Source of the DNA: a virus
Reading direction: 5' to 3' (one strand)
Length of the DNA: 63,118 nt
IMG/VR virus record: IMGVR_UViG_3300006875_000022
Coordinates: 1-63,118 of that record
The position numbers and the translations under genes are program-made. The notes below the pieces were generated by a model, which did not search any database, was not told where the DNA came from, and saw only the letters and a list, made by a program, of their open reading frames with translations. Of the stretch, positions 10,405-36,620 are shown one piece after another; position 1 is the first letter of the stretch; the number at the start of each line of letters is the position of its first letter.

Positions 10405-13400
10405 TTACCTTATACCTGATCTTGACTGCATTTTAATTCCTAGGTCTTTAGCCACATCTGGAACAAACACAGGGAGATATTGGGACAGCTGATTTGTAAT
10501 TGGGAAGGATTTCATAAGGTATTTTATAGCAAAAGCGTCATCTCTCATCTCCTGGTCATTCACAATCACCCCAAACATTTCCTTCATGAAGTTGCTTAAG
10601 AACTTCCCATAGTTGTCAAGCTGGCTGATGGCTGGGAATATACCCCCTGCCACAAGGGCTGAGAAGTTGGCTGGGTTGTAGAAATAGGCAATCTCATCCT
10701 TAAGCTTGTCTGTAGCCCTCATGATAAACCTATATCTGTTTCTAACCACCTCATCCTCATCCTCATCTGGGGCATTTGCCTTCAGAGCCATGAACAATCC
10801 TATCAGTGTGAGGTAGAACATAAGATCAATCATCTGAGACTGTATACTTCTTCTTACCAAGTCCACAAACTCGGTTTCTGTCATATCCAGCTCTTTACCT
10901 GTTTCTGTCTCATATTCCTCCTTCTTCTTCTCAAACATCTGTCTCATATCATCCACACCAGCTTGGTTACCTACAAGAGAGTTTCTTAGCCTCTTTATGC
11001 TTTTAATAACGTCAAGGGACAGCATACTAAACGCAACACGCATCCTACCCCATTCATAAGCATCAGAAGCTGAGTTGTATTTCAGGTCACCAAACCTAAC
11101 ATCCACCAGTCTTGGAATCCATTTTTTGAACAACATGAAAGAATTTCCATATATGTTCATGTCAATCATTCTTCTAGCATCATCTGTCATGTTACCAAGA
11201 GCATCCTTGCTCACTTGTTGTATCTTCCTTCTGAGCTCAATCACTGATTCGTCTTTCCTATTTACGCCAGGTATAGTAAACTTATTATCAACCACTTGTC
11301 CTACCTTCATCACTCCCTTTTCTTCTACAAGCTTCTCAACATCCTTCTCAAACTTCTTCTCTCTTTCTTGTCTTTCCTCTGTTGTACCAGCATACATATT
11401 TGAGTATTCAGGAGTGGTGCGTAGGTATTCCCTAGCATTTACCACCTGTCCATCCACTACAATAGAGTTACCTATGTAAGCAAGGAAGTTAACAGTTTGT
11501 ACGTGCTTGTCTGAATTTCTCATGAGGCTCATGAGGAAGTTTTGTATTCCATCAGGACTCAACTTACCCAAAGACAACTCATTAGCAATATCCCTAGAGA
11601 AGTCTTCTGTAAGAGGAAGGAAGTAATCTAGGGCACCAATAATCTTTTTCTTTTCCTCAGTGGATATAAAGTTGAGCCATTTAGCATTCACCTTTGCTTC
11701 AGCAGCAAGATAGTCTCCCTTTGTAAAGTATTTTCCACTATTGATAATTGACTGAGAGGTACCACCAAACAAGTTGGAGGTAGCTGACAGAGGATTCAGA
11801 CCCATAGCTTGGAGACTGAATGTTTTGTTCAGTGTATCAATAGATTTATTCATTGATATGATTCTTCCCTCTAATCCTTCTGGGAATATCTTCACACCAA
11901 GTTTTTTGTTTATCTTTTCACCAACGTTGGTTAGCTTTCCAAGAGCCTGGTCAAACGTATCATTCTTCAGATATTTCTGTCCATAGATGATACCCTTCAC
12001 CATGCTATCAATAAGCTCAGTGTTCTTGCTATTATTTGGAACAGTGATGAGCTTTCCAGTTTTCTTGTCGTATTGGGTCTTTGAGAACCAGGAAGTGGCA
12101 ATTGATCCTTTGTTTTGCTCTATGTCAACCAATCCCAAAGCCTGCTCTTCAATCTCTGAAAGATACTTATATCTAAGAGCCATGGTGTTATATAGAGCCA
12201 GGTTTCTGAATAGGTCCTCACTCACGTCCTCCTTAATCTCTGTAGTGAAGTATTTAGGAATCTCGTCAATTGGTTTACCAGTGTACTGGTCCATTTTACC
12301 AAGACCCACTTCTGAATTTGGATCAACAGATATAGACTTTAGGAACTGTTCAAATAGATTCACCCTGCCACCAGACATAAGTGTTTCCACTAAACTCTTT
12401 CTCACCCATGGTAAAAACACCCTCTCTTCTCCTCTTCCTAAATATCCAATAGATCTATAGTCGTCATTAACTTTCCTGATGTAGTTGTATAAGTCCACAG
12501 CAGGTTTATTCACATAGTTACCAGCAGCATCTTTCTTAAACAACTCTTTCCATTCTTGAGACTGCCACTTCTCCACCTTTGGAAATCTCTTGATGAAGTT
12601 ATATTGTAACCAGCCAGCACTTGTTGTTGAAGAGGTGTTATAGGCTTTCTTCATCTTGTTCAGCTCCCACTCCTTCTTTCTTTCCTGTTCTTCAGACAGA
12701 TAGAAGTTTCCTGTAGCTCTGTCAAACTCCATTCTGTCCTTATACTTCTGATTAATCTCTTCTGTTTCTTTTTTGATTTGCTCATCAAGGAAGTCGTTAT
12801 AAGCTTTGATATCAATGTTTTCCTTAACCCAGTTGAATAGATCAGGATCTTTCCTATCTATTCTAGACTTAAGTTCTTTGTAGAACTCAGGGTTAAACTC
12901 ATCGATAAGTTCATTCTTACCCTTCTTCTTGATGATATTGAAGTAGTCTTTCTTATTAAGACCTTTAGCAGTGGCCCATTTCTTATATCTACCCTCAATC
13001 TCTTGAAGTTCTCTTGCCAGGTCTACAGAATCCATAGAAGCTTTTGCAAGCGCTCTGTTAGATTTTCTAAATAGCACCTTTGCAGAGTTGAGCTGTAAAG
13101 AGGCTGTATCTGAGAACCATCTTGCTACAATACCTATCTCCTTCTCTTCCTTTATAATGTCCTCAACCTTCTCACTTCTACCTACAACATCTCTTACGAA
13201 AGCTGTCTTAGTTCTATTAAGCTTGTCACCTAAGGCTCTAGCCACTCTAACAGTCTTAGCCACCTCAGTCTCAAGCTTCTCATTCTCAGCACCTCCTGAT
13301 AAGAATAGGTCTGAAAGGTCAACATCCAAGCTAGTGTATGTACCAAGCATCTTCTCAGCATCTCTTATCTCCTTCAAGAATGCACTTCTCTGTGCTTCTT

Positions 13401-16236
13401 CTTCTGGTGTTATTCTTTCTTTATCCTTCCATTCTGTCTCAAATCGATTGATTACCTTCTGGATGTAGTTGTTAAGCAACTTAGCTTCTTCCAAAAGCGG
13501 TTCAATGTTTTGTCTTATCTGAAGTTGTCTGATGGCTGACATCAGGGTATTCAACTGCACAGCTTTTTCTTTCTTCTCTGAAGGAAGTGCTTTCTTCTCA
13601 GAAAGAGTTCTATAGGCAGCGTTCAGTTTCTTCAACAGTGCATCTATCTGTTCGTTTCCTGTTGCTTCTTCTTCCAGCCCAACAGGCATCAGGTATGCAT
13701 CTGTGATATCTTTTGGATCTACAGCACCTATTTCTATTCCTAGGAGTGTACCACCAGAATAAACTGTCCTGATAGGAATCATTCTGGTTTGTCCAAAGTC
13801 TTGAGATTTAAAACCATACGCATTGATTAGCATGGTTTTATACTGATCCATTTGATTCTTCCAAGCAGCTATCTTGTACCAAGGAACATCCTCATATACA
13901 TCAACGTTCAAATCCATAAACTTCCAGTCTATTATATTCACCTTACCATCTTTAGTGATGGCAACTAGGTCAATTGTACCAGCCTTGTTAGTCTTTGGAT
14001 CATATATCTTTATCTCAGAAAGAAACCTTGTACCTTCTCCAAAGGATGCAAGTCTCTCACGTAGATTCTCTTTTAGCGTTTCATATATAACTCTCTCAGG
14101 ATCATTAGGGTCCATTTGAGGAACATATCCACTATCATCTAGAGGATCTTGTCTGAGATAGCCATTTTCATCAACCAATATACCACCTCTACCATCGTTC
14201 AATCCTCTTATCAAATAGTCTTGATCACTGTGTCCTTTAGTTCCTTTGTCTCTTTTTATATCATCGATTGCCTTGTCTTTCTCAGTTTTGGTGATTTCAT
14301 TGTTTGAGAATCTTCTTGAGTACCAATCTTTTACATCATCAGACACCCTTTTTAATATCTTTGTAACGCCATCTAAGAAATACCTAGGTTCTTTTTTACC
14401 TTCTTCTTCAACATCTTTGATAGATAGTCTGCTATCCATAGCTTTCAATCTATCGATGCTATCTTCCTGCTTGGTCTTTTGTAAATAGGCTGCTCCCTCT
14501 TCTGCTCTAATATCTTCTACAGTGCCAATCTCTTCCCCAGAAAGCACAGAAAGGGCTGCTTGATCAAACCCACTCTTTATGTTGAATAGGTTTTTAAGCC
14601 ATTCTACAATCTGTGACCACCAGCTTTCCACCTTTGCTAGGTGTTCAGGATTTTCTATAGAACCCTCATTCTGGTTAATCACTGTCTCAGCTAACACCTT
14701 AGCGATAGCTTCATCTTTTAACTTTCTGATGTCAGGTTTTCCATCAGCAGTTTGGTATAAAGGATTTGTACCATAGTCAGCCAACACCTGCTTATATAGC
14801 TGGTAGTTGTTAATCTCCTTTAACAGCTTGTTATAAAGCGCTGGGTTTGTTTGCTTTATGATCTCCAAAGCAAAGTGCATAGCTTCTTCAGGAAGAGCAA
14901 CGCCCTCTTTACCCTGAACAATCTGAATGAGCTTCTGTGTAATTAGAGCTGCAGCATTAGCATCTTGCTTAACACCATTTACAACTATGCTGTCATACTC
15001 CTTAACATTTACACCAATCCTCCCAAGGAAGTCTTTTATCTTAGCTATTGTAGCAGGAGAAGCTGTTGATGTCTCTGTTCCTACAAGCTGAAACGGAAGA
15101 TCGTCAATGTCTTCATTAGATGTTGCCTCTCTAAACTTTTTTAAGTTTTCTTCAAATGTCCTTTTTTCTTCTTCTCTTTTTTCAGTTTGTTCTGGTGAGT
15201 TATAAAAGTCAATAGCTGATTGTTGGTTTTTATCTACAATGTTTTTTATCTCCTCTATTATAGATTGTTTCTCAGCATTTGTAGCATTTATTTCATCTAA
15301 TAGAAAGTTGAACAAGTAACCACCATGAGGAGAATATCTGGTTCCATAGGTAGAAATATTTAACAATGATCGTTCGTTAACATCAAAATTTCTTCCAGTA
15401 TTTCTAACTTGTTGTAATATTATTTCAGATAAACCATTGATAATGAATGATTTATCTATTCTGTCTTTAATTTTATCATAAGCTTTCTGAGCAGCTCTTG
15501 ATGTAAGATATTCATCTGGAACATACCAATCAGGAACATTGTCGTTCTCACCACCTCTTTCATACTCTTGAATTTCAGCATAGTTATCTGCTGCTATTCT
15601 ATTAGAATAGATTGCATCAAGAAGATCTATATCAGACTTTGCTTCAGACATCATTTCTTGAGCCCTTGTATCTACTTCCGCAGAATACTTTTGACGCATT
15701 TTTTCTGCAAGTGTAGGAACTGTTATTATCTCATACTGTCCTTTTGGGACAACAAAAGGTTTGTTTCCATTAACAGCAATTTCTTCTGCAGATTCTATAT
15801 CATAATTGTTTCCAAGTGCCTGATTTTTTATCTTAATAATTACATTTCCATTTTTCCTGAGCATGTAATCTTGAGCAACAACAGGTATTTGTGTAAAGGA
15901 TATTGATGTGGTTCTATCTTCAAAGTTTTTAGAAGGTGTCAATATCAAGTTTCCTTCACTATCTATCTCATATGCATTTGTTCCATGGTACACATTGTAA
16001 TAGTCAGGCTTAAACTTGTTGTCAATTCTAGGAATTGCAACTGATACAAAATCTTCTCTATTAGATAATCTTCTATTACTATAAAGATTTCTCCAATAAG
16101 ATTCTCCCATCTCATTTTCAATTTCTACAGGAGTAGTTTGTTGCTGAGAAAAATCAATTTCTGCAAGCAAAGGATTGCCCCCTGCTTTTTCTAAAGCCTT
16201 TTTAAACTCTGGAGTATTGGGATTTATACAAGCCAT
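10405..16236 (-). CDS. Giant multidomain virion (ejected) protein with ART-like and PD-(D/E)XK-like regions, 1943 aa
   Basis: Probably a packaged, ejected protein. I start it at the ATG at 16236 (MACINPNTPEFKK), 2 nt after the RNA polymerase stop, rather than at an upstream TTG. Residues ~79-173 look like an ADP-ribosyltransferase fold: VYHGT (His84), SISFT (~111-115), then a SAEEIAV acidic pair (Glu151/152). Residues ~450-460 hold PEEAMHFALE, seen in polyvalent phage proteins and perhaps a degenerate zincin. Residues ~745-775 read GTIDLV (Asp756) then IIDWKF (Asp770, Lys772), the D-x13-D-x-K spacing of PD-(D/E)XK nucleases. The middle is long, charged and helical. One strongly hydrophobic segment (~1795-1815, DLMFYLTLIGLFMAL) could insert in a membrane. 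The domain calls are motif-based; packaging is inferred from position. Confidence 0.85.
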   Translation of the reverse strand: MACINPNTPEFKKALEKAGGNPLLAEIDFSQQQTTPVEIENEMGESYWRNLYSNRRLSNREDFVSVAIPRIDNKFKPDYYNVYHGTNAYEIDSEGNLILTPSKNFEDRTTSISFTQIPVVAQDYMLRKNGNVIIKIKNQALGNNYDIESAEEIAVNGNKPFVVPKGQYEIITVPTLAEKMRQKYSAEVDTRAQEMMSEAKSDIDLLDAIYSNRIAADNYAEIQEYERGGENDNVPDWYVPDEYLTSRAAQKAYDKIKDRIDKSFIINGLSEIILQQVRNTGRNFDVNERSLLNISTYGTRYSPHGGYLFNFLLDEINATNAEKQSIIEEIKNIVDKNQQSAIDFYNSPEQTEKREEEKRTFEENLKKFREATSNEDIDDLPFQLVGTETSTASPATIAKIKDFLGRIGVNVKEYDSIVVNGVKQDANAAALITQKLIQIVQGKEGVALPEEAMHFALEIIKQTNPALYNKLLKEINNYQLYKQVLADYGTNPLYQTADGKPDIRKLKDEAIAKVLAETVINQNEGSIENPEHLAKVESWWSQIVEWLKNLFNIKSGFDQAALSVLSGEEIGTVEDIRAEEGAAYLQKTKQEDSIDRLKAMDSRLSIKDVEEEGKKEPRYFLDGVTKILKRVSDDVKDWYSRRFSNNEITKTEKDKAIDDIKRDKGTKGHSDQDYLIRGLNDGRGGILVDENGYLRQDPLDDSGYVPQMDPNDPERVIYETLKENLRERLASFGEGTRFLSEIKIYDPKTNKAGTIDLVAITKDGKVNIIDWKFMDLNVDVYEDVPWYKIAAWKNQMDQYKTMLINAYGFKSQDFGQTRMIPIRTVYSGGTLLGIEIGAVDPKDITDAYLMPVGLEEEATGNEQIDALLKKLNAAYRTLSEKKALPSEKKEKAVQLNTLMSAIRQLQIRQNIEPLLEEAKLLNNYIQKVINRFETEWKDKERITPEEEAQRSAFLKEIRDAEKMLGTYTSLDVDLSDLFLSGGAENEKLETEVAKTVRVARALGDKLNRTKTAFVRDVVGRSEKVEDIIKEEKEIGIVARWFSDTASLQLNSAKVLFRKSNRALAKASMDSVDLARELQEIEGRYKKWATAKGLNKKDYFNIIKKKGKNELIDEFNPEFYKELKSRIDRKDPDLFNWVKENIDIKAYNDFLDEQIKKETEEINQKYKDRMEFDRATGNFYLSEEQERKKEWELNKMKKAYNTSSTTSAGWLQYNFIKRFPKVEKWQSQEWKELFKKDAAGNYVNKPAVDLYNYIRKVNDDYRSIGYLGRGEERVFLPWVRKSLVETLMSGGRVNLFEQFLKSISVDPNSEVGLGKMDQYTGKPIDEIPKYFTTEIKEDVSEDLFRNLALYNTMALRYKYLSEIEEQALGLVDIEQNKGSIATSWFSKTQYDKKTGKLITVPNNSKNTELIDSMVKGIIYGQKYLKNDTFDQALGKLTNVGEKINKKLGVKIFPEGLEGRIISMNKSIDTLNKTFSLQAMGLNPLSATSNLFGGTSQSIINSGKYFTKGDYLAAEAKVNAKWLNFISTEEKKKIIGALDYFLPLTEDFSRDIANELSLGKLSPDGIQNFLMSLMRNSDKHVQTVNFLAYIGNSIVVDGQVVNAREYLRTTPEYSNMYAGTTEERQEREKKFEKDVEKLVEEKGVMKVGQVVDNKFTIPGVNRKDESVIELRRKIQQVSKDALGNMTDDARRMIDMNIYGNSFMLFKKWIPRLVDVRFGDLKYNSASDAYEWGRMRVAFSMLSLDVIKSIKRLRNSLVGNQAGVDDMRQMFEKKKEEYETETGKELDMTETEFVDLVRRSIQSQMIDLMFYLTLIGLFMALKANAPDEDEDEVVRNRYRFIMRATDKLKDEIAYFYNPANFSALVAGGIFPAISQLDNYGKFLSNFMKEMFGVIVNDQEMRDDAFAIKYLMKSFPITNQLSQYLPVFVPDVAKDLGIKMQSRSGIR

Positions 16237-16237
16237 A

Positions 16238-19200
16238 TCAATAACATTCTTTAAGTTTGTCAATTGCTTCCTGTCCTTTGGTAGCTATTGCATTGTTTAT
16301 ATAATCTAATGCTTGCTCTTCAGTCATGTTGTGTTTTGTAGCAAAGTTGCTAACAATCTTCTTCTGTCTTTCTGCAGGAAAAGCAGATTCAAAAGAAATA
16401 GCAGCTTCTGCAGGCTGTACTTTCATAATGTCTGAATATGCGTTTTCTCTGAAGTAGTCAACTATTGCAGCATCTGAAATTTCACCACTCACCTTTGATC
16501 CGTTTACATTTATGATGTTCTTCTGAGTTCCATTGTTGAAAACGGAAGGTCTTCCATCTCCATAATACTCAGTGGTGTAGTTACCATCCCCATGCAAGTT
16601 AATAAATTTATAGACATAAATTGCATTTCCATCTCTATCACGTCCAGCAATTACAGGAGAACCATCTACATTCTTCACCTTCTGATAGCCATAGTAGTTC
16701 TGAAGAGATGTGTCACCATTCTTTATCTTCTCAGCGTAAGTTTGGTTAGTGATTTCCAAGCCAGTGGCTATATCAAACTTACCCTCATCTAGCTTCTTCT
16801 TGTTGATAGGAAGCGCTCTAGGAACCTTCACCACATCATAGTTGCTACCCTTAGCATCATACTTCTCATTCAAGAACAACAGCTGTCTTTGCATGGTTTT
16901 AACACCCAAACCTTGGATGGTTGGGAATTGACCAGGAACCACAATAGGACCATTCATTGTATTAATCTTTACAAAGGCAGCTTGGAATCTTCTAGGAGCA
17001 TCTTCGTTATATTCAACCTGCTCTACCTCTCTAAATCTAGGATTTACAATTGGCACCACCTTATCATCAGCAAACTCATTCCTTTGGAACTCATAGCTTT
17101 TTGCAAAGGCTTTAATTGACTCATCAGCCTTCAGACCAGCAATGATGGGAGTTATCTTAGCAGCATAGTCTTCTACAGGTATGATGTTCTTGATGGAGAT
17201 GGGAGACATCTGCGTACCCTGTAGGATGGACAGTTTCACTATTCCATTATACAGAGCGTTTGTACGAGGATCATCTCTAAGCTCTCTCATCATTCCTGTG
17301 TACATATCTTCACTATCTTTAGACTTATCATTCACTCTTAGTTTGATGGTTTGTGCACCTCCAATTCTACCTGAGCTATCCACCTCTAAGTCATTGATAA
17401 TCTTTACGTTAGGGAATTGCTTCTTAGCTTCAGTGAGCATGTTTGCCACAGAGGTGGAAGTTTCTACTAGGTCTCTGTACAGATTAGCAGCAACATCTGT
17501 TCTTGTTTGGATGATGAAGTCAAGAAGAGCAGATTTCATCTTATTACCCACCTTATTACGATCTTCATTACCTAAGTATTGATCTCTGTAATAAGGCTCC
17601 ATAAGCTCATCTGTGATCTCCATGAACTCAGGCTTATCAAGAACAAGGTATTCAGCAGCAGCATCTACACTCTTGTTGAGGTACATTGCCTGCTCTCCAA
17701 TGTGTGTATTTCTTAAAAGCTCATCCACAGAAGAGAATATGTTATACTTCTCTGCGAATTCTTGCTTGTATTGTTTGTTAGAGAGGTTTTCTGCATTTCT
17801 GAACTTAGTAGTGTCATAGTTGGAAGCCTGTGTAAGATTGAAGCTGAAGTCAGCCATCTTAGCATATTTCAAGAACTCTTTAAGAATAGCTATCTGCTCA
17901 CCGTTCTTACGTGGACTCAACTGTTTTTCACTGTAGTAGGTTTTGATGTTTTCTTCAAGACCATCCTTATCAAACGTATTAGTTATGTCTTGTTTAAGAT
18001 GAGGGAAAAACTCCTGTATCTCATTTATATATCTTGAATCAAATAGAGTTTTTGACTTCTTCTTATCTAAGAGCTTAATATACTCATCTATGATTGGCTG
18101 GTTCATGAACATTGCCAGCTGCTCATTAGGAACACCCACTCTTCTGAGGAACATGAATGTGCTTATCAAAAGATCGCTCTTAATGATTCTCAAGATGTAT
18201 GGGTCTTTAGCAACGTCCACAACAGCTGTAGCATATCCAGATAAACCATCAGAGATGTATCCTTCATTCTTAGCATCATAGATTCCTGAGATGGAAGCAT
18301 ATGTCTTACCATCCACTTCTATAGTGTTATGATCAAGGAGGATTTGTCCACCATTGTATTTAAGAATGTTTCTCTCGTCTCTATTCTTAACATTTTCAAA
18401 TCTAACTGGATCAATTATAATCTTAGACTTCTGTGCAAGAGAGTGTCCTGTGATGTTTGTAGCCACAATACCCACCCACTTCTTACCAGTGATGAATGCA
18501 TTCCTTAGGTTGCTCAGGAAGTTTCTATTAAGAAGCTTGTTCTTAACAGCTGCTTCATCATATCCTTTCAATGCATCTATCTTTCCAGCTAGCTTCTTCA
18601 GACCACCATCAGTTACAGGATTCACCAATCTGCTGAAGTTCTCAGGGAGTGTAAGTAGTTCTTCCAGGCTCTCATAGTATTCATTCTCAAGAGCTTTTGT
18701 GTACATCTCATCTACAAACTTCTCTCTCAGACCCTTCTGAATGTTTTCATCTCCAAGCTCATTAATATCATCTATTATAGCCTGCTCATAGTCAGATGAG
18801 TCAGTAACTCCTTCAAGAACAATATTTAATGTATTAGCATATTTCTCTACAAGATTCTTAGGATCATCAAGATTGTATGATAAGATCTGTGCAGCTTCCA
18901 ATAGTTCAGTCTTATACATTTGCTTTCCAGCCAATGAGTCATTGAACACCTTTGTATAGAAAGCTCTTGTGCTTGCCTCATCACCCTCAAGAGTGACAAG
19001 TCTGAGATTACCATTCCTATCAATATAGGTGGCTTTCAGATACATGTTGAGTTTATCTATATCAAAGTCAGATCCAGCTTTTGTAGTGATGGCTGATGGA
19101 ACAACCACTGTCTTACCCATAGCCTTAGGGAGGAAGCCCTTCACAACAAACACTTCTGCAGAGCTTAGCGCCTGTGTAGGAATACGGAAACCAACACCTG

Positions 19201-22200
19201 TTAATATCTTTCTTCCTTCAGGAGTGTTCAGATATTGCAGGATTTCAGCATCTGTCTTCTTAGACAGCTTGCCCAAATCTCTGAACCAGTGAGGAATCAT
19301 CACCTCACAATATCTCTTACCCTTCTCATCCTCATATATCTTAAGAGTGTCCTCTGTAAGGATTACACCCTTCTTATCCTCCATAGCTTCATACTCTTCT
19401 CTGCTTATCTTTTTGTAGCCATCTTTTGTCTTTACAGCAAGACCTCTTCCCTTAGAAGCACTTTCCCATCCTGTTACAGGCACCTGTACATATGGACCAC
19501 CTGACATTTTAGGAGAACCGATAGCCTTGTCTATGAAAGAATAGATGATGTTTCTAATCTGAACATATGCAGGAGAAGCCTCAAACGGAATGATGAACTC
19601 GTTGTTTTCATCAAGCTGTATGCTATCCACTACATTCTCAGACAGGGTTCTTTTGAACATCTCATCCTGTAGAGCCTTAGCAAGAGCAGCTCTGTCTACA
19701 ATTCTGTACACACCTTCCAAGTCTTCCAATCCAGCTTTCTTAAGGAAACCTTCATACTTATTCTTGTGGTATCTACTGAGGATGTCTTTGTTCTTATTTA
19801 CAGCAGCTCTAATAGCTTCTTTTCTCTCAGCATTGGCACCAATAGGTTCACCGTATGCATATAGGTCAAGGGTAGATATCTTTGTAAGCTGACTACCTCT
19901 GGTTTGGTAACCAGGGCCTTCATAGCTATTCTCCACCTGTATACCATATATCTTCCAAGGCACCTCAACAATGTCTTCCTCAGAGAAAGCATCACTGTTT
20001 AGTTTGCCACCTTTGTATAGCTCATATAGTTTCTGAGCACCCACCTTTCTACCAGACACCATAATAGCATAACCTATTTGGTTATCAGGATTAATCATTC
20101 TCAGATATACATCTTCAAGACTAGTTCCCTGTACAGCCTTATAGTAGATGGGCATTTGGGAGAACTTATCAAGCACAAGCTCAATTCTGTTCTTGTTGTT
20201 CTTTACACCAGATACAATTGGCTTCAATACCTCTAGCACAAAACCAGGCTCAGGAGTAGCTACCAATGCTTTGTCATGTTCCTCAAGAACAGGATTGGTG
20301 TAGTCATATCCAGGCATGTTCTGTCTGGTGTAAGCCATCTGCCACTGATACCAATCTTCTGCTTCCTTAGGCCACTGAGAGTTCTTAATCTTAACTTCTC
20401 TATATGTGCCTAGCTCAAGAATAGAAGAAGCGTCAGCCTCAGTGATATCAAGGAAGGCTTTTCTCACTTCCTTAGAAAGATTAGGATTATTAGCCAGTGA
20501 ACTAGCCACCTTCACATCATTCAATGTAATAGTCTTTGTGTAAGACTTGAAGGTGTGGTAGCCTGGATCTTTAGGATCAAGCTTTATTCCATCAGCATTG
20601 TTCACATTATCATTAAGGAATGAGTTAAACTCCACAAGATCAACAGTAATTCTTCTTGGAGAGAGGAAACTCTTGATACGCTTGGTCTCATCTAGTTGGT
20701 TGTCCTTAATAGCAAACTGATAAGGATCACCAAACAATATCTTGTGATACTCAAAGTTGCTAATGATCTGGTTGGTATTAGCAAACGTTATAATGTTTGT
20801 AACATCTTCCTCGGTTAGCTCATTCTTTTTTAAACTTTCTCTGCTAGCAAAGTTGCCATCAAGAGATTCATATTTAAGAAAACCTTCATCTGTGAAAGAA
20901 AGCTCACCTGTGTTTTTCAGGTTTTCTATGGTTTCTTTTGCTGAACCATTTATGAAAGCTTTGATGTCAGACTCTATACCAAGAACAATTTTCTTGTTAC
21001 CCACTGGGTCTTCAATCTCTCTATCCTTAAAGTTCTCATTGATGTATGTTTGGATATCACCAAGTGATCTCTCATCATCAATCATTTCCTGGATGGCAGA
21101 AGCATATTTCTCAGAGAGAATCTCTCCAAAGAAGCGAAGATCTCTTGCTCTGTCTCCAAGGTTTCTAATATCTTTTCTGTTATCAGCATCTAGGGCAAGA
21201 GCTACGTCATCAAATAGATAATCCTTGAATATGTTATTCACCTTGTCCCATGCCTCTCCTGTTTCAAATTCAGCAAACTCTACATTGTTTCCTAGATTCA
21301 TCATCCATTCTGTAGAGCTATCTGCAGGAATCAGTACATAGAACTGACCATTCAGGTTCTGGTTAATCTCCAAAGAAAGCTTTTCTCCCTCTGTAAGATT
21401 ACCAACTGACTTTCCTGAAGAGGTGTCATTGTTGTTTCTTCCCTCGATATATCCTAACTTAATCTTTAAGTTAGTTCTCTTACCATCTTCATCAAAGAAC
21501 AGTCCACCAAGTTTGAGGACTTGTGATCCTTTAGAGAACACATCCTGTAGCTCAGGTCTGATTTGGAACAACTCCTGTATACTTCCCACCTCATTGAATG
21601 TGGTTTCAAACACAGAAGGAGCGTTGCTATCTGCAAACGAGTTAGCTTGGTTACCTGTGATGTTTGTACGGGTACTTGCCTGAATAGGGTTAGTAGCACC
21701 TACCAGGAACTCAGCCAATGTATTTAGAGGACCTCCGATGTCCAGAGTTTTCTTCTGAACATTCATGATCTGCTTATCCTTAAGCAGGGTGTTCTTAATA
21801 GAGCTTACAGCTGTTGGGAACTTGTTCTGTTTAATATCTTTGCTAAGACGGTCATATGCATCCTTAGAGAATGTTACTCCCAGCTTTGCAAGGAACTCCA
21901 ATTGTTGCTTAGGACTGTCAATCTTTACATCTGATATATCCTCAATTGTGTAGGATTTGTCTACACTATCATATTTAATGATTGAGTCTGGATCTTTAGC
22001 CAGGTTTCTGATGTTCTGTATCCATCCTTTAACAGTGGTGTTTACAATACCTGTTACAAGCGCAGAACCAGAATACACCTGATTTCCTTGTATGTATTCT
22101 ATCCTAGCATCAGGCTTTTGTTTTGTATATACCTGTACCAATTCTATAAACAATCTCCAATCGTCATACTTGAAGTCTCCAAATGGAAGAGTTCCTGTTT

Positions 22201-25200
22201 CCAGATCTCCTCCCACCCTTTGGAAGAATCTAACATAGTCAGAGTCTTTCTTGCCTAGGTTGAATAGTTTTGAAGCTATCTTACCAATGCTTGTATTATG
22301 GAGGGCGTTGATTACAGTGGAGAACACTTGTCCATAAGGAACCAGTGAATAAAGATTATTAATATCTTTTAGATCAGGAAGAGTGAGAGATGTTCTACCC
22401 TCCTGACTCATTGCTTTGGTCTTAGGAATAGTAGAAGATGTGAACTTTATTCCAACAGGAGCAGACTTCTTATAGTCTGTAGAGAATGGTTCTGGAGCAT
22501 AGTCTCTGTTATTGCTTTGCTCATCATTGATGTTTACCAAGTCTTCCTCATTAAAGGAGACCTTAAGGTTGGCTTTTAGGGAGCGCTTAGTCTTTTCAAC
22601 CAGATCATTCCAGGTGTTTTCACTAAGTTGATCCATCCAGCCCTGCTCAGTGTAGATGTTTTTAATCTCATCAAACACTTGCTTGCTGGTTATCTTTCTA
22701 ATATCATAGATGGCTGACTTATCGATTGCACCTATCTTTCCATTTCCAAAGATCATGGCAGAAGATAGGGCTGTCATATCCTGAACAAACTCATTAGTCT
22801 GCTGTTCGTTAAGATCTTCTGCAGCTCTGTAAGCTGGACCTAGGTTCTTAACCTCAGGAGCTAGCTCTCTATCTTTGAATCTACCTTGCTCAATATTATC
22901 AAACAGTTGGTCCTTTAATGTAGGTTTGGCTACAAAGGACTTGAAGAAATCCATGATTCTTTTGAAGAACTCACGGATAGCATCTCCTAAAGTTCTAGCA
23001 GCAAGCTTACCTTTTCTGTAATCACTGAAGTCATCAGCTAGTCTATCTTCCACTTGCTCTTCTGTAGCATCAGCAAAGTTGATAGTCTTACCGCTAAGCC
23101 TGTCTTTGAAGCTACCCTCTTTAGCATTAAACTCTTTTACAATAGCAGCTCTTTCATCAGCGTTGAGCAATCCTCTCCATATACCGTGAAATATCTCATG
23201 GTATTCTGTAGCTCTCAATCCACCACGTACAAACTTAGCCACACCATTCTCAAACACACCCCATGCCTTTCTATTAGGATTGATGGTTACCATCTGTCCA
23301 AGAATCTCATAAGGGATTTGAGGCACCTTCTCAGCATGCCATTTCTTAAAGGCTTCAATATCAGCCTCAGTCATTCTCTCAGACTCATCAGTCTCACTTA
23401 CAGCTCTGAATAGGTTTCCTCTCTTCTTTGTCTTCTTAGGATCAAACTGTGTCTTCTTAGGCTGTGCTTCTTCAGCAGGTTTAGGTCCTTCTAAAGCAGC
23501 TAGTTCTGGATTATGTAAAGTTATTCTTATGAATTCTGCATCTGATAGTAAATCTTTATTATATAAGAATGAATCAAAAGCATCTATAAATTGTGTTTTT
23601 CTAACAATTTCACCAAATTTTTCAGTGCTAGTTACAAAACCTTTATACTTTTTGGAATACTCTTCTATTCTACTAAAGATTTCAGGGAAGTAGTTTTTTA
23701 CTGTTTCTGCTAGTTTTAGCATTCTTTCCTTTGACTCATTAGTAACTACTCCAGATTTATCTTTAAAGAAACCTATACCACCACCCCTAGATATTCTAGA
23801 AGATACATCTCCTTTAGAACTTACATGTATTCTGTTAGAGAAATAAATAGTCTTATCATTAGATTTGACAAACTGCATAACTGTAATTGCTCCAGTATCT
23901 GTAATATCTACAGTTTGTTCATATGTAACATTTCCTAATACTTTAGTAATTTCATATTTATTAGGATTAGCAAGTATGTCTGCTTTGTTATCTATTATAG
24001 ACTGAGTATTTATACTAAATAAACTTTCTATATCAGCTTTAGCATCTGTAGAAACAGGAGCTTCGGGAGCACTAGGAACAACTTCCTCAACTGTAGCAGT
24101 CTTTAGATCATTATCCACTTCCTTTCTAACAACACTGAGTATGACACCATTGGCTTGTTTAACCAATGATTCCTCATCTGCCTCTGGGGAGTTTTGTCTT
24201 AGCTTCTTAACAAGGTTATCTTGTGTCTTCTTAAACTCCTCGCTGTCTACCAAGAATTGAGGATCTTCTCCTTCCTTAATGGTGAAAGTTACATTACCAA
24301 AGCTCAGAATAGGAGTGGTGTTCTCTGTAGTTCCATTGTATTCAAACTTACCTTTAGGAGCAACAACCACCACTGGTTTAGCTTCTACAGCAGGTTTGTT
24401 TATTACACCAATAGGAAGCTCAAGTCCTATAAGGGTTGAGTATTTCTGCTTATGTGTATAAGGAATCTCAGAAAGAGGAATGGCTATTTTAGTTGTAAGA
24501 GGGGTGTCAGCTGCAGCTCTCTTAGATCCATCTGGGAATGTAGAGGACAACAAGTAGGACTGGTAGTTAGCCCAATCACGAGACTTGAGTTCTCCCTTCT
24601 CAATATAGAACTCTGTAAAGGACTTGCTGAACATTTCCTCAGACAAGCTCTTGTTGTTTGTATTGTGGTAGGAGTTACTGATAGCCTCAATCAATTCCTT
24701 CTTATTCTCAGCCAGTTTAGCAATAGGGAATGACTTACCAGCAAAAGATATTGTGGTTCCATCCTCAGAAATATTTATCTGATTAGAACCTTCTTTTGTA
24801 TCTCCTGTTCTCCAATAGAGAATGTTCTGCAGGAACTTGGCTTCTTTTGTCTTACTGAATACAATCTTCTTTCCAGCATTAGCTCTCTGAGTGATGTCAT
24901 TAGCCATCTTCTCAATAACAGCATATATCACCTGAGCTCTCTTGCCATCCAACTTCACATTGTTCAAGAAGGCAACATTGTCACCATATACAAGAACTGG
25001 TCTGCCATTAGGGAAGTTTATAGCTCTTCCTTTGAATGTGATAGTTTTGGTTGTTGGAATCTGTATAATTGATTGACCCTTAAGAACTTGTCTTTCTTCC
25101 TTAGGATCAGATGTAATCAGTGTGACTGCTACATGGTTAGGAGTGTCACCTTCTATAGCTATACCTCTAGATATGTTGAACTCATAAACTGTAGGAGATG

Positions 25201-28200
25201 CACTAGGATCTGTAGCAAATATGTTTGCTCTTTCTTTTTTCCAAGCTTCTAGATATACTTTAGCTTCTTCCTCCTGTCCACTTCTTGCTTTTGTACCACC
25301 CTGGCTATCTTTAAGAGCAGCTCTACGCATTGTCTGGAAAACAACATTACCAAGTTTGGTTTCATCTAATTGCTCTCCAAACTTACCAAGTTTGTTTCCA
25401 GTTTTATCAATAAAGTATAGATCACTACCCACTTGTTCTACAAACACTTGGGCAATAAATCCATTGTCTATATCTGTAGTGTCTTTTAAGAACTTGTCTT
25501 TTTGTTCTTGTGTTGCTAGGTCCTCATTTCTAACACCATAGGAGATTTGAGTGAGTCCCTCTAATCCATATGCTTTCTCCAATAGAGGAGTGATAAGGAT
25601 AGCTCTTAGGTTTGCTCTATTAGCAAAACCCTGTGCCTTGTTTAAAAACTCTCTAGAATTCTTAATGTGAATAGGAGACAGAGCAGCATTCTTCTGCCAG
25701 TTAGGATCATCACTACCTTCAGATTCTGTAGTGCTTGAGCTGAACAATATCTTTATATCAGGAAGAGCACTTTCTTTACCGTAAGGTTCTGCAGGGTTTC
25801 CTGTGTTTACGTTTCCAGAATCTGCCTCTAGGTCTTTCTGCTCATTAGCTATTTGCTCTTTCTGCTTAGCTATCTTTTCCTCTTGGGTTTCAAGAGGAGT
25901 GTATTTCAATATATCTGTTTTAGGAATGTCTTGGATGTCACCATTGGAGTCAGTGATTCTGATAGTGCCATCTCCATTATCTCTAACCACAGTCACCTTA
26001 AGTAGGCTGCTTAGATTTTCATTCAAATACTTAGTAGTGGCAGATGCTTCTTCTTTTGAAGGATGTGTAGATACAATAGTCTTGTCTGGACTAATCACTT
26101 GGTATCTTCCATCAGCAATCTTCCTGGTTCTATACTTACCAAGATTTGAAGTTTCATACTCTCTACCAGGAGTGAGTTCTGACTCAGGAGCATGTTTAGG
26201 AGGAAGTCTGTTCTCATCCACCTTGTTAAACTCGTCAAACCCTTTCTCAGGATTAGATAGAATATCAAATGCATCTCCTGCATCTTTCTTCATCTCAGCC
26301 AGTCTGTTAAGATCTACAGCTAGAGAGATAGCCTTTTCTACATCCAGAGGATGTTTGATGTTCTTATCAGTTCTTAGAGGGTCTCTTCCGTTAATCTCAA
26401 AGTTTACTAGGTTGTCAAATAGCTTAAGATAGTCGCCTGGTAGATTTTCCTTCCTAGAAAGAACATCTTTAGACATCTCATCTTTTGCTACTAAATAGTA
26501 GGTGTCTGTAACACCATATATTTTTTCTGCTAGGTTTCTAAGTGTCTTAGCTCTTCTCTCCAGTTTCTTTCTTTCCTCAGGAGTGGTGATGTCACTAATT
26601 AGACCAAGAGATGTTGTAGCCTCTTTCTCATATTCTTTAGCCAAGTCTAATAGCGAGTCAACACTACCAAGTTTCTTAACTATATCTACAGACAATAGAG
26701 GATTGATGTCAATCAGTTCTTTCTGTATCTCATCGGTTCTTCTGTCAGCATGATCAATCAAGGATGGGAAATAAGTCATTGCTGTCTTATAGTTCTCATA
26801 CTTCCTGTAGTTCTCGCTTTCAGTTATTTCCTCATCAGTCTTAGGAGTTCTGATATACTTGTAAGGGTTTACAAAGAACTCATTGATCTTGTCGTAGTTT
26901 CTCTTAATCTTATTAGCTTCCTCTTGAACCAATGACAGGTATGCATTTACAACCTGTCTGTTGTCTGCCGTAGCATCAAATCCAAACATTTGTTTGAATT
27001 GCTCATTAGGAAGTTCTTTGGCAAGTTTAATTTCTTCCTCTAGAAGACCATATCTGTTGCCCTGCATTCTGGCATTTGCCCAAGAGAACAAAGCTCTAAA
27101 CTGAGCATTCTTGTATTCAAATATATCTCTCTTCTTAACAGCAGCTTCCATGTCTTTAGAAGCCTTAAGCTGTTGAGCAGCATTTTCAAAGTTGTTCTCA
27201 AATACACCCATGAGCTGGCTAGAGTTGAGATTGTTAATCTCAGCAGCTATCTGAGCTTTTGATCCTGTACCTTTTATGTTACTATATACACTCTTTGCTT
27301 TACCAGTGAGTCCTGCTGTCAAAGCTCCTAAGAACATGTTCTCCCAACCAGCTGTTGTTCTGAATTGGTCAACTAGTCCAGTTCCTATAGAATCAATGAA
27401 TTCAGCTAAGTCGTTTCTTGATTTGTTATTTTTCTGATCAAAATACTTCTTATTGTAATAGTCGTACGTACCTCTTTCTATTGCAAACTGTCCACCCTCT
27501 TCAAACACACCTTCTGTAAACAGTTCAGGTGCATATGGTTTGATGTCTCTAACTATCTTTCCAAATGTAGACTTAGGCACTATTTCTGAATAGCCACCCA
27601 TTAGTCCATCTTGAAGAGCAATGCGCTTACCAGCAATTTCCTGGAATATAGGAGAGGTTACACCTACTCTTGCTGAAGAGAAAGGTCTTAATATGTTTTC
27701 AAACTGTATAGCGTTTGATACAAGGAGGATGCCAAGGTTTCCTATTTCCCTAGCGTTCATAGCAGATGTAGCAATATCCTCAATATCTTTCAGGTCTTTT
27801 CCAGTGGGTTCTAATCCATAGTTGTCAAGCTTGTATTGATCAATCAGATCAGTCTTCAATGTTCTGTATCCATCTCTTGACTCAATTCCTGCCTCAGTGA
27901 GAGCAGATGTCCACAGATTAAGTCCATATCTAAACTGATTATTAATCTTTCTAGAAGCAGCCAATTGAGCCAATGTTTCCATTCTATTGAGCTGCTCAGC
28001 TGTTCTACCAGCTTGCACACCGCTATCTAGAAACGATGTAAGGATACCTTTTTCAGTGGCACCCAATGCTCTTCCCACCCTGCTTTCTGAGGATAGGATT
28101 TTATTCATGTAAAGAGCTGCTTTTCCTATCTGGTTAGATAGCAAAGGAATTTCACCAAGTCCTTGTGTAAGAGCACCTATGGCAAAATCCTGCACTACAG

Positions 28201-28813
28201 CACCAGCAATAGCACCACCCATGAATCCAAGGTTCTTAACAAACTTGTCTCCAAAGGTGTTAGCAAAGCCACTACCTAGGATGCTTTTAAAAGGATGTGC
28301 TTTCTCATAGTCTGAATAGTAGTTGGGATAGAGATCTTCTAGATTTCTATACCAGTCATCTATAGGACTAACATAAGAGTCTTTTCCAGCAAGCTCAGAT
28401 AAATCTTGTTTTGCTACAGCGTTTATTGTTTCTGGAATACTATTGAATGATTGTGCAAAGGTGCCCACCATAAAGGCACCACCTTTTACAAGACCGTTAC
28501 CAATCTGCTTGTACCAGGGTTGTACTCTTGCATATAAATCTTCATAGTTTGTTCCTGGCTTATAATAATCATACCTCTTGTTTCTAGAAAGCTCACTTAT
28601 CGTAGATCCGAATATAGGCCCTGATTGGACAGAGTTCATTCTGAATAGGTCTTGAACATCTCCAGTACCCACCTGTCCAAAGTCTGAATCTAGATTTGGG
28701 ACAGCAGGATGCAGGGTGTCAGGCAACACCTTCCCCTTATAGACTTCTTGCTCTTTGGGAAATCCTTCAAGTGGCTTATCAAAAGCTGGTAAATCTTTAT
28801 TAAAAATCGGCAT
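16238..28813 (-). CDS. Giant virion RNA polymerase fused to a zincin metalloprotease, 4191 aa
   Basis: A crAss-like virion-packaged DNA-dependent RNA polymerase. Residues 3249-3253 are DFDID within a TKAGSDFDIDKLN context. This is the double-psi beta-barrel metal-binding motif of the polymerase shown for Cellulophaga phage phi14:2 gp66, which is related to eukaryotic RNAi polymerases and transcribes early genes after ejection. A second enzyme site is HEIFH at 1872-1876, with a downstream EEQVEDRLADDF acidic segment (Glu1918-1922) as likely third zinc ligand. The protein is about twice the length of gp66, so extra N-terminal modules are fused. Residues ~90-260 have several Gly/Ala-rich hydrophobic stretches that might contact membrane. 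It overlaps the 886-aa gene by 14 nt and is followed directly by the 1943-aa gene: one ejectosome operon. The polymerase motif is strong; domain borders are not resolved. Confidence 0.9.
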   Translation of the reverse strand: MPIFNKDLPAFDKPLEGFPKEQEVYKGKVLPDTLHPAVPNLDSDFGQVGTGDVQDLFRMNSVQSGPIFGSTISELSRNKRYDYYKPGTNYEDLYARVQPWYKQIGNGLVKGGAFMVGTFAQSFNSIPETINAVAKQDLSELAGKDSYVSPIDDWYRNLEDLYPNYYSDYEKAHPFKSILGSGFANTFGDKFVKNLGFMGGAIAGAVVQDFAIGALTQGLGEIPLLSNQIGKAALYMNKILSSESRVGRALGATEKGILTSFLDSGVQAGRTAEQLNRMETLAQLAASRKINNQFRYGLNLWTSALTEAGIESRDGYRTLKTDLIDQYKLDNYGLEPTGKDLKDIEDIATSAMNAREIGNLGILLVSNAIQFENILRPFSSARVGVTSPIFQEIAGKRIALQDGLMGGYSEIVPKSTFGKIVRDIKPYAPELFTEGVFEEGGQFAIERGTYDYYNKKYFDQKNNKSRNDLAEFIDSIGTGLVDQFRTTAGWENMFLGALTAGLTGKAKSVYSNIKGTGSKAQIAAEINNLNSSQLMGVFENNFENAAQQLKASKDMEAAVKKRDIFEYKNAQFRALFSWANARMQGNRYGLLEEEIKLAKELPNEQFKQMFGFDATADNRQVVNAYLSLVQEEANKIKRNYDKINEFFVNPYKYIRTPKTDEEITESENYRKYENYKTAMTYFPSLIDHADRRTDEIQKELIDINPLLSVDIVKKLGSVDSLLDLAKEYEKEATTSLGLISDITTPEERKKLERRAKTLRNLAEKIYGVTDTYYLVAKDEMSKDVLSRKENLPGDYLKLFDNLVNFEINGRDPLRTDKNIKHPLDVEKAISLAVDLNRLAEMKKDAGDAFDILSNPEKGFDEFNKVDENRLPPKHAPESELTPGREYETSNLGKYRTRKIADGRYQVISPDKTIVSTHPSKEEASATTKYLNENLSSLLKVTVVRDNGDGTIRITDSNGDIQDIPKTDILKYTPLETQEEKIAKQKEQIANEQKDLEADSGNVNTGNPAEPYGKESALPDIKILFSSSTTESEGSDDPNWQKNAALSPIHIKNSREFLNKAQGFANRANLRAILITPLLEKAYGLEGLTQISYGVRNEDLATQEQKDKFLKDTTDIDNGFIAQVFVEQVGSDLYFIDKTGNKLGKFGEQLDETKLGNVVFQTMRRAALKDSQGGTKARSGQEEEAKVYLEAWKKERANIFATDPSASPTVYEFNISRGIAIEGDTPNHVAVTLITSDPKEERQVLKGQSIIQIPTTKTITFKGRAINFPNGRPVLVYGDNVAFLNNVKLDGKRAQVIYAVIEKMANDITQRANAGKKIVFSKTKEAKFLQNILYWRTGDTKEGSNQINISEDGTTISFAGKSFPIAKLAENKKELIEAISNSYHNTNNKSLSEEMFSKSFTEFYIEKGELKSRDWANYQSYLLSSTFPDGSKRAAADTPLTTKIAIPLSEIPYTHKQKYSTLIGLELPIGVINKPAVEAKPVVVVAPKGKFEYNGTTENTTPILSFGNVTFTIKEGEDPQFLVDSEEFKKTQDNLVKKLRQNSPEADEESLVKQANGVILSVVRKEVDNDLKTATVEEVVPSAPEAPVSTDAKADIESLFSINTQSIIDNKADILANPNKYEITKVLGNVTYEQTVDITDTGAITVMQFVKSNDKTIYFSNRIHVSSKGDVSSRISRGGGIGFFKDKSGVVTNESKERMLKLAETVKNYFPEIFSRIEEYSKKYKGFVTSTEKFGEIVRKTQFIDAFDSFLYNKDLLSDAEFIRITLHNPELAALEGPKPAEEAQPKKTQFDPKKTKKRGNLFRAVSETDESERMTEADIEAFKKWHAEKVPQIPYEILGQMVTINPNRKAWGVFENGVAKFVRGGLRATEYHEIFHGIWRGLLNADERAAIVKEFNAKEGSFKDRLSGKTINFADATEEQVEDRLADDFSDYRKGKLAARTLGDAIREFFKRIMDFFKSFVAKPTLKDQLFDNIEQGRFKDRELAPEVKNLGPAYRAAEDLNEQQTNEFVQDMTALSSAMIFGNGKIGAIDKSAIYDIRKITSKQVFDEIKNIYTEQGWMDQLSENTWNDLVEKTKRSLKANLKVSFNEEDLVNINDEQSNNRDYAPEPFSTDYKKSAPVGIKFTSSTIPKTKAMSQEGRTSLTLPDLKDINNLYSLVPYGQVFSTVINALHNTSIGKIASKLFNLGKKDSDYVRFFQRVGGDLETGTLPFGDFKYDDWRLFIELVQVYTKQKPDARIEYIQGNQVYSGSALVTGIVNTTVKGWIQNIRNLAKDPDSIIKYDSVDKSYTIEDISDVKIDSPKQQLEFLAKLGVTFSKDAYDRLSKDIKQNKFPTAVSSIKNTLLKDKQIMNVQKKTLDIGGPLNTLAEFLVGATNPIQASTRTNITGNQANSFADSNAPSVFETTFNEVGSIQELFQIRPELQDVFSKGSQVLKLGGLFFDEDGKRTNLKIKLGYIEGRNNNDTSSGKSVGNLTEGEKLSLEINQNLNGQFYVLIPADSSTEWMMNLGNNVEFAEFETGEAWDKVNNIFKDYLFDDVALALDADNRKDIRNLGDRARDLRFFGEILSEKYASAIQEMIDDERSLGDIQTYINENFKDREIEDPVGNKKIVLGIESDIKAFINGSAKETIENLKNTGELSFTDEGFLKYESLDGNFASRESLKKNELTEEDVTNIITFANTNQIISNFEYHKILFGDPYQFAIKDNQLDETKRIKSFLSPRRITVDLVEFNSFLNDNVNNADGIKLDPKDPGYHTFKSYTKTITLNDVKVASSLANNPNLSKEVRKAFLDITEADASSILELGTYREVKIKNSQWPKEAEDWYQWQMAYTRQNMPGYDYTNPVLEEHDKALVATPEPGFVLEVLKPIVSGVKNNKNRIELVLDKFSQMPIYYKAVQGTSLEDVYLRMINPDNQIGYAIMVSGRKVGAQKLYELYKGGKLNSDAFSEEDIVEVPWKIYGIQVENSYEGPGYQTRGSQLTKISTLDLYAYGEPIGANAERKEAIRAAVNKNKDILSRYHKNKYEGFLKKAGLEDLEGVYRIVDRAALAKALQDEMFKRTLSENVVDSIQLDENNEFIIPFEASPAYVQIRNIIYSFIDKAIGSPKMSGGPYVQVPVTGWESASKGRGLAVKTKDGYKKISREEYEAMEDKKGVILTEDTLKIYEDEKGKRYCEVMIPHWFRDLGKLSKKTDAEILQYLNTPEGRKILTGVGFRIPTQALSSAEVFVVKGFLPKAMGKTVVVPSAITTKAGSDFDIDKLNMYLKATYIDRNGNLRLVTLEGDEASTRAFYTKVFNDSLAGKQMYKTELLEAAQILSYNLDDPKNLVEKYANTLNIVLEGVTDSSDYEQAIIDDINELGDENIQKGLREKFVDEMYTKALENEYYESLEELLTLPENFSRLVNPVTDGGLKKLAGKIDALKGYDEAAVKNKLLNRNFLSNLRNAFITGKKWVGIVATNITGHSLAQKSKIIIDPVRFENVKNRDERNILKYNGGQILLDHNTIEVDGKTYASISGIYDAKNEGYISDGLSGYATAVVDVAKDPYILRIIKSDLLISTFMFLRRVGVPNEQLAMFMNQPIIDEYIKLLDKKKSKTLFDSRYINEIQEFFPHLKQDITNTFDKDGLEENIKTYYSEKQLSPRKNGEQIAILKEFLKYAKMADFSFNLTQASNYDTTKFRNAENLSNKQYKQEFAEKYNIFSSVDELLRNTHIGEQAMYLNKSVDAAAEYLVLDKPEFMEITDELMEPYYRDQYLGNEDRNKVGNKMKSALLDFIIQTRTDVAANLYRDLVETSTSVANMLTEAKKQFPNVKIINDLEVDSSGRIGGAQTIKLRVNDKSKDSEDMYTGMMRELRDDPRTNALYNGIVKLSILQGTQMSPISIKNIIPVEDYAAKITPIIAGLKADESIKAFAKSYEFQRNEFADDKVVPIVNPRFREVEQVEYNEDAPRRFQAAFVKINTMNGPIVVPGQFPTIQGLGVKTMQRQLLFLNEKYDAKGSNYDVVKVPRALPINKKKLDEGKFDIATGLEITNQTYAEKIKNGDTSLQNYYGYQKVKNVDGSPVIAGRDRDGNAIYVYKFINLHGDGNYTTEYYGDGRPSVFNNGTQKNIINVNGSKVSGEISDAAIVDYFRENAYSDIMKVQPAEAAISFESAFPAERQKKIVSNFATKHNMTEEQALDYINNAIATKGQEAIDKLKECY

Positions 28814-34901: not shown

Positions 34902-36620
34902 TCAGTTATATTTATCTAACCAGCCGCCCTTGGTTGGTTTGTTATAGTTTGTAAAGTTAAGTAATTGATCCAGCTTTTCAATAGGATATTCATCAGCTTT
35001 ATTCACACTAATTCCCTTTTTAGCCACAGGATATTCTGTTACATATTCACCATCAAATTCATAATCCTCTCCAGGCTCCATATATTGTGTGTCTCCTGTG
35101 TCAGATACACCAATTAGTGGTTGATCCACACCCTTCATAGTGATATCTGTGGATGGGATGATTACAGGATTGCCCCAGTTCTCAGGGTTCCAATATCCTT
35201 CAGGATCTATAACAGCTCCATCTTGACTAATGGTCTTAGGTTTGAAATCCAAGCCTGCTTGGTAGTATTTCATTTCCATTCCATTCTGTGCAATAGAAAC
35301 TCCCCCAGAAACATTCTGTTTCTTAGAAATAGAGTTAAGCATATCTATTATCTGATCGTCTGTATATATATTTGAAAGAATACCTATAGGATCAAGATAC
35401 TCACTGCTTTTAATTCTTCTATACTGTTCAGGTGTAATTTTTTGTGTAAAAGGATCATAGATACCTTGATATTTACCTAAACGTCTAACATCATTTAAAT
35501 GCTGTCTTGTTTCTTCAGGTTCACCTACATACTTATCAAATTCACTAATAAGTTTATTTTTATTATACCTACTCATCTTTTCCATATCTGAAACAGGTAT
35601 AAATTTTCTAACATCTGCTTCTCTAAGTTCTTTACCACTCATCTGAGATGGATGCTTTATAATCAAAGGTCTATCTGTAGTATGTCCAATTTCATGAGCT
35701 AACACACTTTCATAATCAAATGTTCCAGGTTTAAGTTTATTATCCACTTTGATATCCCAACCAGTTATAGCAGGTTGCATCAATTTATCAACAAGACGTT
35801 TGGCATCTTTATCTTTAGGATTATTTACAGCATTTTGTAAAGCATTCATTAACTCCTCACGTTCTTGAAATGTAGCATTTGAAAGAGTTCTTACACGCAT
35901 TGATGTTTGACCTAGAGTTCCTTCAGGTAGTGTGCTGCTAGAAGTAATAAGTCTAGGTTGACTAAGATTAGCTACTCTTCCTTTGCTTATTCTATCATAC
36001 TCTTCACCACTAGCACTAGCAGAAAGCATTTGATTATACATAGGAGAGTTCATCCAACCTTTTACAAAGTCTTCTCCTTTCATCACCTCTTTACCATCCT
36101 GAGCACTAGCCTTGGTCTTCTTAGCGTAAGGACCATTGCTAGGAGCAGCTCCCACCGTGCGCGCGTACGTGAATCCTACAGCACCAGGAAGACTTCCTCC
36201 CATTGCTAGTTGCATTGGGATGGGTTTAACACTATCTCCTAATTGAGCCATAGGAACAGTTTGGTTGGCTCCAGCCATAGCAGGCATTAGATTACCACCA
36301 TTCTTAAACTGTCCACCCCACGCAGGACTGTAGTTGCGACCTTTGAGGTTATTACCCATACCTACAAATCCTGGGGGAGTGGATATTGTATAGTCGTTAT
36401 AGTTGCCTTTTTTACCGTAGTTATCCTTGGTCTTTTGTTTCAACACCAATCCTCCCTGCTCATACTTATCCAACCATCCACCTTCCTCAGCTTTGTAAGG
36501 CTTAGCACCTCCAGCTATAGCACCGAAGAATCTTCTTTGCTTGTCTGTCAAAGGATGCCCATGCACGCTCTTGTCGTGTAGGATTTCCTTTGCTTTTGCT
36601 GATGTAAGTTTCTTTGCCAT
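34902..36620 (-). CDS. Virion protein with inserted HEIGH metallopeptidase, 572 aa
   Basis: A structural module interrupted by a zinc peptidase. Residues 1-38 carry HGHPLTDKQRRFFGAIAGG, widespread in phage virion proteins. GGWLDKY occurs near the N-terminus (47-53) and again at the extreme C-terminus. Between ASAQDG (171-176) and SIAQNGMEMKYYQAGLDFKP (442-461) lies a ~265-residue domain with HEIGH (His309, Glu310, His313) and a downstream GEPEET segment (Glu367-370) as possible third ligand. From memory of crAss-like homologues, the flanks are normally contiguous, so the peptidase looks inserted. Possible roles: maturation cleavage of virion proteins or host-envelope degradation. Its ATG shares one base with the stop of the 287-aa gene. 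Confidence 0.82.
   Translation of the reverse strand: MAKKLTSAKAKEILHDKSVHGHPLTDKQRRFFGAIAGGAKPYKAEEGGWLDKYEQGGLVLKQKTKDNYGKKGNYNDYTISTPPGFVGMGNNLKGRNYSPAWGGQFKNGGNLMPAMAGANQTVPMAQLGDSVKPIPMQLAMGGSLPGAVGFTYARTVGAAPSNGPYAKKTKASAQDGKEVMKGEDFVKGWMNSPMYNQMLSASASGEEYDRISKGRVANLSQPRLITSSSTLPEGTLGQTSMRVRTLSNATFQEREELMNALQNAVNNPKDKDAKRLVDKLMQPAITGWDIKVDNKLKPGTFDYESVLAHEIGHTTDRPLIIKHPSQMSGKELREADVRKFIPVSDMEKMSRYNKNKLISEFDKYVGEPEETRQHLNDVRRLGKYQGIYDPFTQKITPEQYRRIKSSEYLDPIGILSNIYTDDQIIDMLNSISKKQNVSGGVSIAQNGMEMKYYQAGLDFKPKTISQDGAVIDPEGYWNPENWGNPVIIPSTDITMKGVDQPLIGVSDTGDTQYMEPGEDYEFDGEYVTEYPVAKKGISVNKADEYPIEKLDQLLNFTNYNKPTKGGWLDKYN

Follow-up and report, generated by a model that had tools for sequence, protein, structure and literature searches.

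A minus-strand ORF of 4191 aa occupies positions 16238-28813 of the window (the whole stretch of 63,118 nucleotides that was analysed), running from an ATG at 28813 to a TGA at 16240-16238 without an internal stop, and its start ATG gives a 14-nt overlap with the upstream gene. Searches of the whole protein against Pfam and PHROGs returned nothing informative, and a scan of genome contigs found no host-genome relative. PHROG matches to a portal and a major head protein provide a structural-gene context within the window, and the best portal matches, among those listed, are from crAss-like phages. Sequence comparison identifies the ORF as a gp47-like protein, a putative zincin and a polymerase joined in one chain, with the following layout:

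16238-28813, minus strand: whole 4191-aa ORF, comprising a gp47-type N-terminal part, a variable linker, a putative zincin and a crAss-like virion RNA polymerase
27185-28639, minus strand: N-terminal part (residues ~59-543), with homology to crAss001 gp47 and phi14:2 gp67
23473-24067, minus strand: variable linker or module (residues ~1583-1781), directly upstream of the zincin-like domain
22844-23416, minus strand: zincin-like domain (residues ~1800-1990), with HEIFH and the third-ligand candidate E1922
23186-23200, minus strand: HEIFH sequence motif (residues 1872-1876)
23048-23050, minus strand: E1922 (QVE-DRLADDF), candidate third zinc ligand, which pairs with the HExxH state in the relatives scored
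17594-21136, minus strand: polymerase core (residues 2560-3740), matching phi14:2 gp66 (6VR4)
19055-19069, minus strand: DFDID catalytic metal-binding motif (residues 3249-3253), with GSDFDIDK aligned with gp66

Other minus-strand genes of the window have features of their own. The next large gene (10405-16236) has no family match and contains an in-frame ATG at 16236, one base past the stop of the giant ORF, which is probably its true start, the TTG listed at 16263 being less likely. A 3020-aa protein (869-9931) repeatedly matches families of tail-fibre and collagen-like minor-tail proteins. A neighbouring 572-aa protein (34902-36620) weakly matches a tail-protein PHROG and has a HEIGH motif of its own (residue 309); it may correspond to phi14:2 gp70, another HExxH carrier.

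Two cargo proteins in one chain

The first-pass annotation read DFDID at residues 3249-3253 as the mark of a crAss-like virion RNA polymerase, and both the position, which is exact, and the assignment were borne out. The motif is kept in place in 66/66 relatives of the first set. A phmmer search with the single sequence against PDB sequences gave 6VR4 (phi14:2 gp66) as the sole match (E=5e-16), and a 43-sequence profile of residues 2560-3740 matched 6VR4 over 804-1758 with E=2e-69. An AlphaFold2 model of the same residues (pLDDT 86.9, pTM 0.84) retrieved 6VR4 in a Foldseek search (E=3e-34, TMq 0.66 over 1211 columns), and the next hit was QDE-1, an RNAi polymerase of the two-barrel type. Because of these two matches, the polymerase assignment withstood the comparison of predicted structure with gp66 that had been suggested for it, the two double-psi barrels being judged by the whole-fold match rather than delineated individually. 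Profile and model together identify residues 2560-3740 as a crAss-like virion RNA polymerase core. In two relatives, cr108_1 (L152, ~14354) and cr116_1 (L158, ~14519), the polymerase ORF is broken near the catalytic motif and resumes in a second ORF, possibly reflecting an intron or intein.

Profiles of the N-terminal region matched crAss001 gp47 (E=1e-46), phi14:2 gp67 (E=6e-14) and crAss002 gp32 (E=2e-10), each of which is encoded by its own gene beside or near the polymerase gene. Mass spectrometry of crAss001 virions detected gp47, gp49 and gp50 (PMC10172136), and the virion location of gp67 is given by the GenBank annotation of phi14:2. Since its N-terminal half matches gp47/gp67 cargo, the 4191-aa chain unites two cargo proteins that were already known. 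This accounts for the earlier remark that phi14:2 gp66 is only about half as long, which is correct: gp66 has 2180 aa, and phi14:2 encodes the partner protein gp67 (1797 aa) in a gene of its own. By analogy with these homologues (PMC10172136; phi14:2 proteomics annotation), we infer that the chain is present in virions and has a role in early transcription. A second, different HEIGH zincin-like site, which resembles that of phi14:2 gp65, occurs in the N-terminal half (~849-915) of L001, L007, L036 and L041.

The fused architecture itself is already known. RefSeq Suoliviridae carry the same zincin in single CDSs of ~4.3-4.9 kaa (cr118_1 gp14, cr4_1 gp26 and others), polymerases of up to ~6000 aa have been described as a group hallmark (PMC10136315), and an annotation in GenBank MH616963.1 reads 'putative RNAP associated protein fused to zincin protease'. 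In cr118_1 and cr4_1 the polymerase core lies in the same CDS as the zincin, like in the window's chain; the Suoliviridae giants differ in belonging to gut phages, in their distant sequence and, for several, in having in-frame TAG codons. Those that were read have an HExxH site with an acidic third ligand. The environmental IMG/VR relatives (L001-L063) mostly share the chain order and length, and most are ~45-60% identical in the polymerase, but the majority have HExxE+K in place of the HExxH+E of the window.

Fused chains are found in cr118_1, cr108_1, cr4_1 and the large CDSs of other gut genomes, whereas crAss001, cr85_1, phi14:2 and L063-L066 are split. In crAss001, gp47 shares the N-terminal region and carries this zincin (HEAFH...E) close to its C-terminal end, and gp50 holds the polymerase core; the two are separate genes on opposite strands. 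The zincin lies within the gp47-type protein in both crAss001 and cr85_1 (HEAFH, profile E=7e-20 and 5e-26), begins the polymerase ORF in L064-L066, and in L063 precedes the core within a single ORF. As it sits with either the gp47-type or the polymerase half, it is a joint domain able to accompany either one. In phi14:2, gp66 shares the polymerase core and DFDID with the 4191-aa chain and gp67 is homologous to its N-terminal half, but these separate genes have no HExxH; gp65 and gp70 do carry one.

The N4-type (Schitoviridae) vRNAP is likewise a giant ejected single chain with a polymerase and an HExxH domain (PMC5512222, PMC12633501), although its polymerase is a T7-like single-subunit enzyme unrelated to the two-barrel type and its zincin is C-terminal to the polymerase. 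In architecture, the 4191-aa chain also fits the polyvalent proteins described by Iyer et al. (2017), very large chains in which an MPTase is joined to a polymerase and which are delivered along with phage DNA, and it is a candidate member of that class; neither the whole protein nor its zincin gave an informative Pfam match. Zincins fused to injected virion polymerases were described among the polyvalent proteins in 2017, together with the proposal that they process these polymerases, including by self-processing (PMC5512222). A literature search for crAss-phage zincins or metalloproteases found nothing relevant.

The zincin-like domain and the two states of its site

HEIFH at residues 1872-1876 had been taken to mark a zincin. 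The motif, its third-ligand candidate, the predicted secondary structure and coevolution all speak for this, while the search for a solved structure of this fold gave no significant match. Given the composition of this protein, the chance expectation is 0.0045 for DFDID and 0.013 for HExxH, and H1872-E1873 is invariant in 63/63 first-set sequences covering the site and in 145/145 ORFs scored later. The model of the domain (pLDDT 76, core mostly 82-95) contains an N-terminal helix, a small beta-sheet, the HEIFH helix and, further along, a helix carrying E1922 (139-155 of the model), the same order of elements as in the core described for polyvalent MPTases (PMC5512222). The suggested structural check therefore agreed in the order of elements, but a PDB fold search with the model gave no match at E<=0.001, with MATCAP, the DPC-repair protease 6mdw and FtsH appearing only among noise. 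Neither Pfam over 52 zincin-domain sequences nor a PDB profile search built from them returned a zincin, and the BFVD matches of the model at E<=1e-3 were giant crAss-like proteins wherever named. Model and sequence suggest that residues ~1800-1990 form a small domain of gluzincin-like type, whose likely zinc ligands are H1872, H1876 and E1922.

The site occurs in two forms. In the first set, HExxH was found with E1922 in 23 sequences and HExxE with K in 39 and with R in one, with no mixed cases. The same pairing, HExxH with E and HExxE with K/R, held in all 145 ORFs, some of which come from the same contigs. Once near-duplicates had been removed, the 77 non-redundant relatives comprised 23 with HExxH+E and 54 with HExxE+K/R, again without exception. 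A tree of the polymerase core requires 12 state changes, 10 of them on supported branches, and both residues change together in 10/10 independent pairs (sign test p=0.002). When all 16,471 pairs of domain columns are ranked by corrected mutual information, 1876-1922 comes first and 1875-1926 second, and the coevolution of 1876 with 1922 supports both a contact between the two helices and E1922 as the third ligand.

Because the gut and distant members read outside the window's clade retain both HExxH and an acidic third-ligand residue, HExxE+K is most likely the derived form, and comparison of the sequences indicates that in most relatives a Glu-Lys/Arg salt bridge most likely took the place of the zinc site. 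In CLCA proteins (PMC6851300), HExxE is described as a metalloprotease motif, so by itself it does not prove inactivity; zinc binding by the altered form is unlikely because the third ligand has changed to Lys/Arg as well. The altered domain is nevertheless well conserved, with a mean column identity of 41% and an invariant HE.

A tree of the zincin domain needs 9 changes, but its supported branches require just 4 of them, and the pair L019/L081 has a local dip in identity around the domain. Given these two observations, the switches need not all be independent point mutations, and some of them may stem from phages exchanging the domain. The data favour, with reasonable assurance, a protease site that has been switched on and off repeatedly as one unit, between HExxH+E and a presumably metal-free Glu-Lys/Arg form, with no intermediates observed and the rest of the chain unchanged. 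This paired switch is the new point here and is not described in the literature searched. If it is real, the clade is a natural experiment on protease domains in virion polymerases. Natural pairs such as L008 and L018, which are 86% identical over the domain and of which L018 is the HExxE+K member, offer a direct comparison of the intact and altered forms.

The linker beside the domain is also variable. In L012, a ~98% identical relative, ~183 aa of it are absent and a Pro/Glu/Lys-rich tether stands there instead (L012 5999-6044), and the length of the linker zone differs widely between relatives (100 to 650 aa). Its length has no correspondence with the state of the site (medians 268 vs 220 aa).

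Role of the zincin and passage through the tail

We consider it quite likely that the ORF encodes the packaged early-transcription polymerase of an uncultivated crAss-like phage, in which the gp47-like and polymerase halves form one chain and the zincin at their joint is an optional activity. Judging by the homologues, the chain would be packaged, threaded partly unfolded through the tail and refolded in the host, where it would transcribe early genes; partial unfolding of cargo has been proposed for crAss001 ejection (PMC10172136). The gluzincin-like domain lies at the joint of the two halves, right after a hypervariable flexible linker, and since its site looks intact in the window's phage, the putative zincin probably binds zinc. 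Were it to cleave, the likeliest target would be the adjacent linker, which would free the gp47-like half from the polymerase either during maturation or, more probably, after ejection. Such self-cleavage may occur in the window's phage; the next candidate target would be a host protein, and a protease encoded elsewhere may process the chain in trans. In most relatives, the site has most likely been swapped as a unit for the Glu-Lys/Arg pair.

The domain could instead be structural throughout, with the metal site and the Glu-Lys/Arg pair acting as interchangeable helix pins and neither form being a working protease. The invariance of H1872-E1873 even among HExxE members is consistent with this, as is the coevolving flank pair 1875-1926, which would reflect continued packing of the same helices, but the retention of HExxH and an acidic third ligand in the members read outside the clade is what catalysis would predict, and we regard a purely structural role as rather unlikely. 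Similarly doubtful is a host-directed effector, for example in counter-defence, that is repeatedly lost or exchanged with host change. Such a role would suit the ~10 supported state switches and the presence of the domain in split and fused forms alike, and effector action is among the options for polyvalent MPTases (PMC5512222); however, the conservation of the altered form described above would be odd for a dispensable effector.

The first-pass annotation also proposed that the protease could act on the fusion itself or on neighbouring proteins, during maturation or after ejection, and that this would explain the passage of such a large protein through the tail. Taken as a model of delivery, this would have cleavage produce pieces of a size that fits the tail and would make proteolysis a requirement. 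The location of the domain, where the gp47-like half meets the polymerase and close to a variable linker, is compatible with such cutting, and P1 DdrB is processed before packaging, which has been credited to its MPTase (PMC5512222). However, the 54 of 77 non-redundant relatives that lack HExxH+E have chains that are equally long (median 4067 aa with the altered site, 4237 aa with the intact site), and 32/40 complete altered chains are without any other HExxH. In addition, the zincin of crAss001 gp47 exists without a polymerase fusion, and N4 ejects a vRNAP of 3500 residues (PMC12633501), which has an HExxH domain as well but enters the virion unprocessed, the MPTase region being required for encapsidation (PMC5512222). 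For these reasons zincin proteolysis is very unlikely to be the key to tail passage. As the site is replaced as a unit in most relatives, proteolysis would not be required for packaging, passage or polymerase function, and the fact that chains kept their length where both residues of the zinc site were lost speaks specifically against a need for it in ejection.

A fortuitous HEIFH with no zincin present would agree with the lack of a zincin match in Pfam, PHROG or PDB, but is highly improbable in view of the low expected count, the invariant HE and the secondary structure in zincin order, and is contradicted by the presence of a third ligand that coevolves with H1876.

Compensation for the altered site by a second HExxH was considered and rejected, as another such motif is carried by 8/40 altered and 7/20 intact complete chains. 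Near the C-terminus of the giant ORF, extra HExxH motifs were seen as HEVKH (~4036-4242) in L002, L003 and L033 and as HEQSH (4372) in L007.
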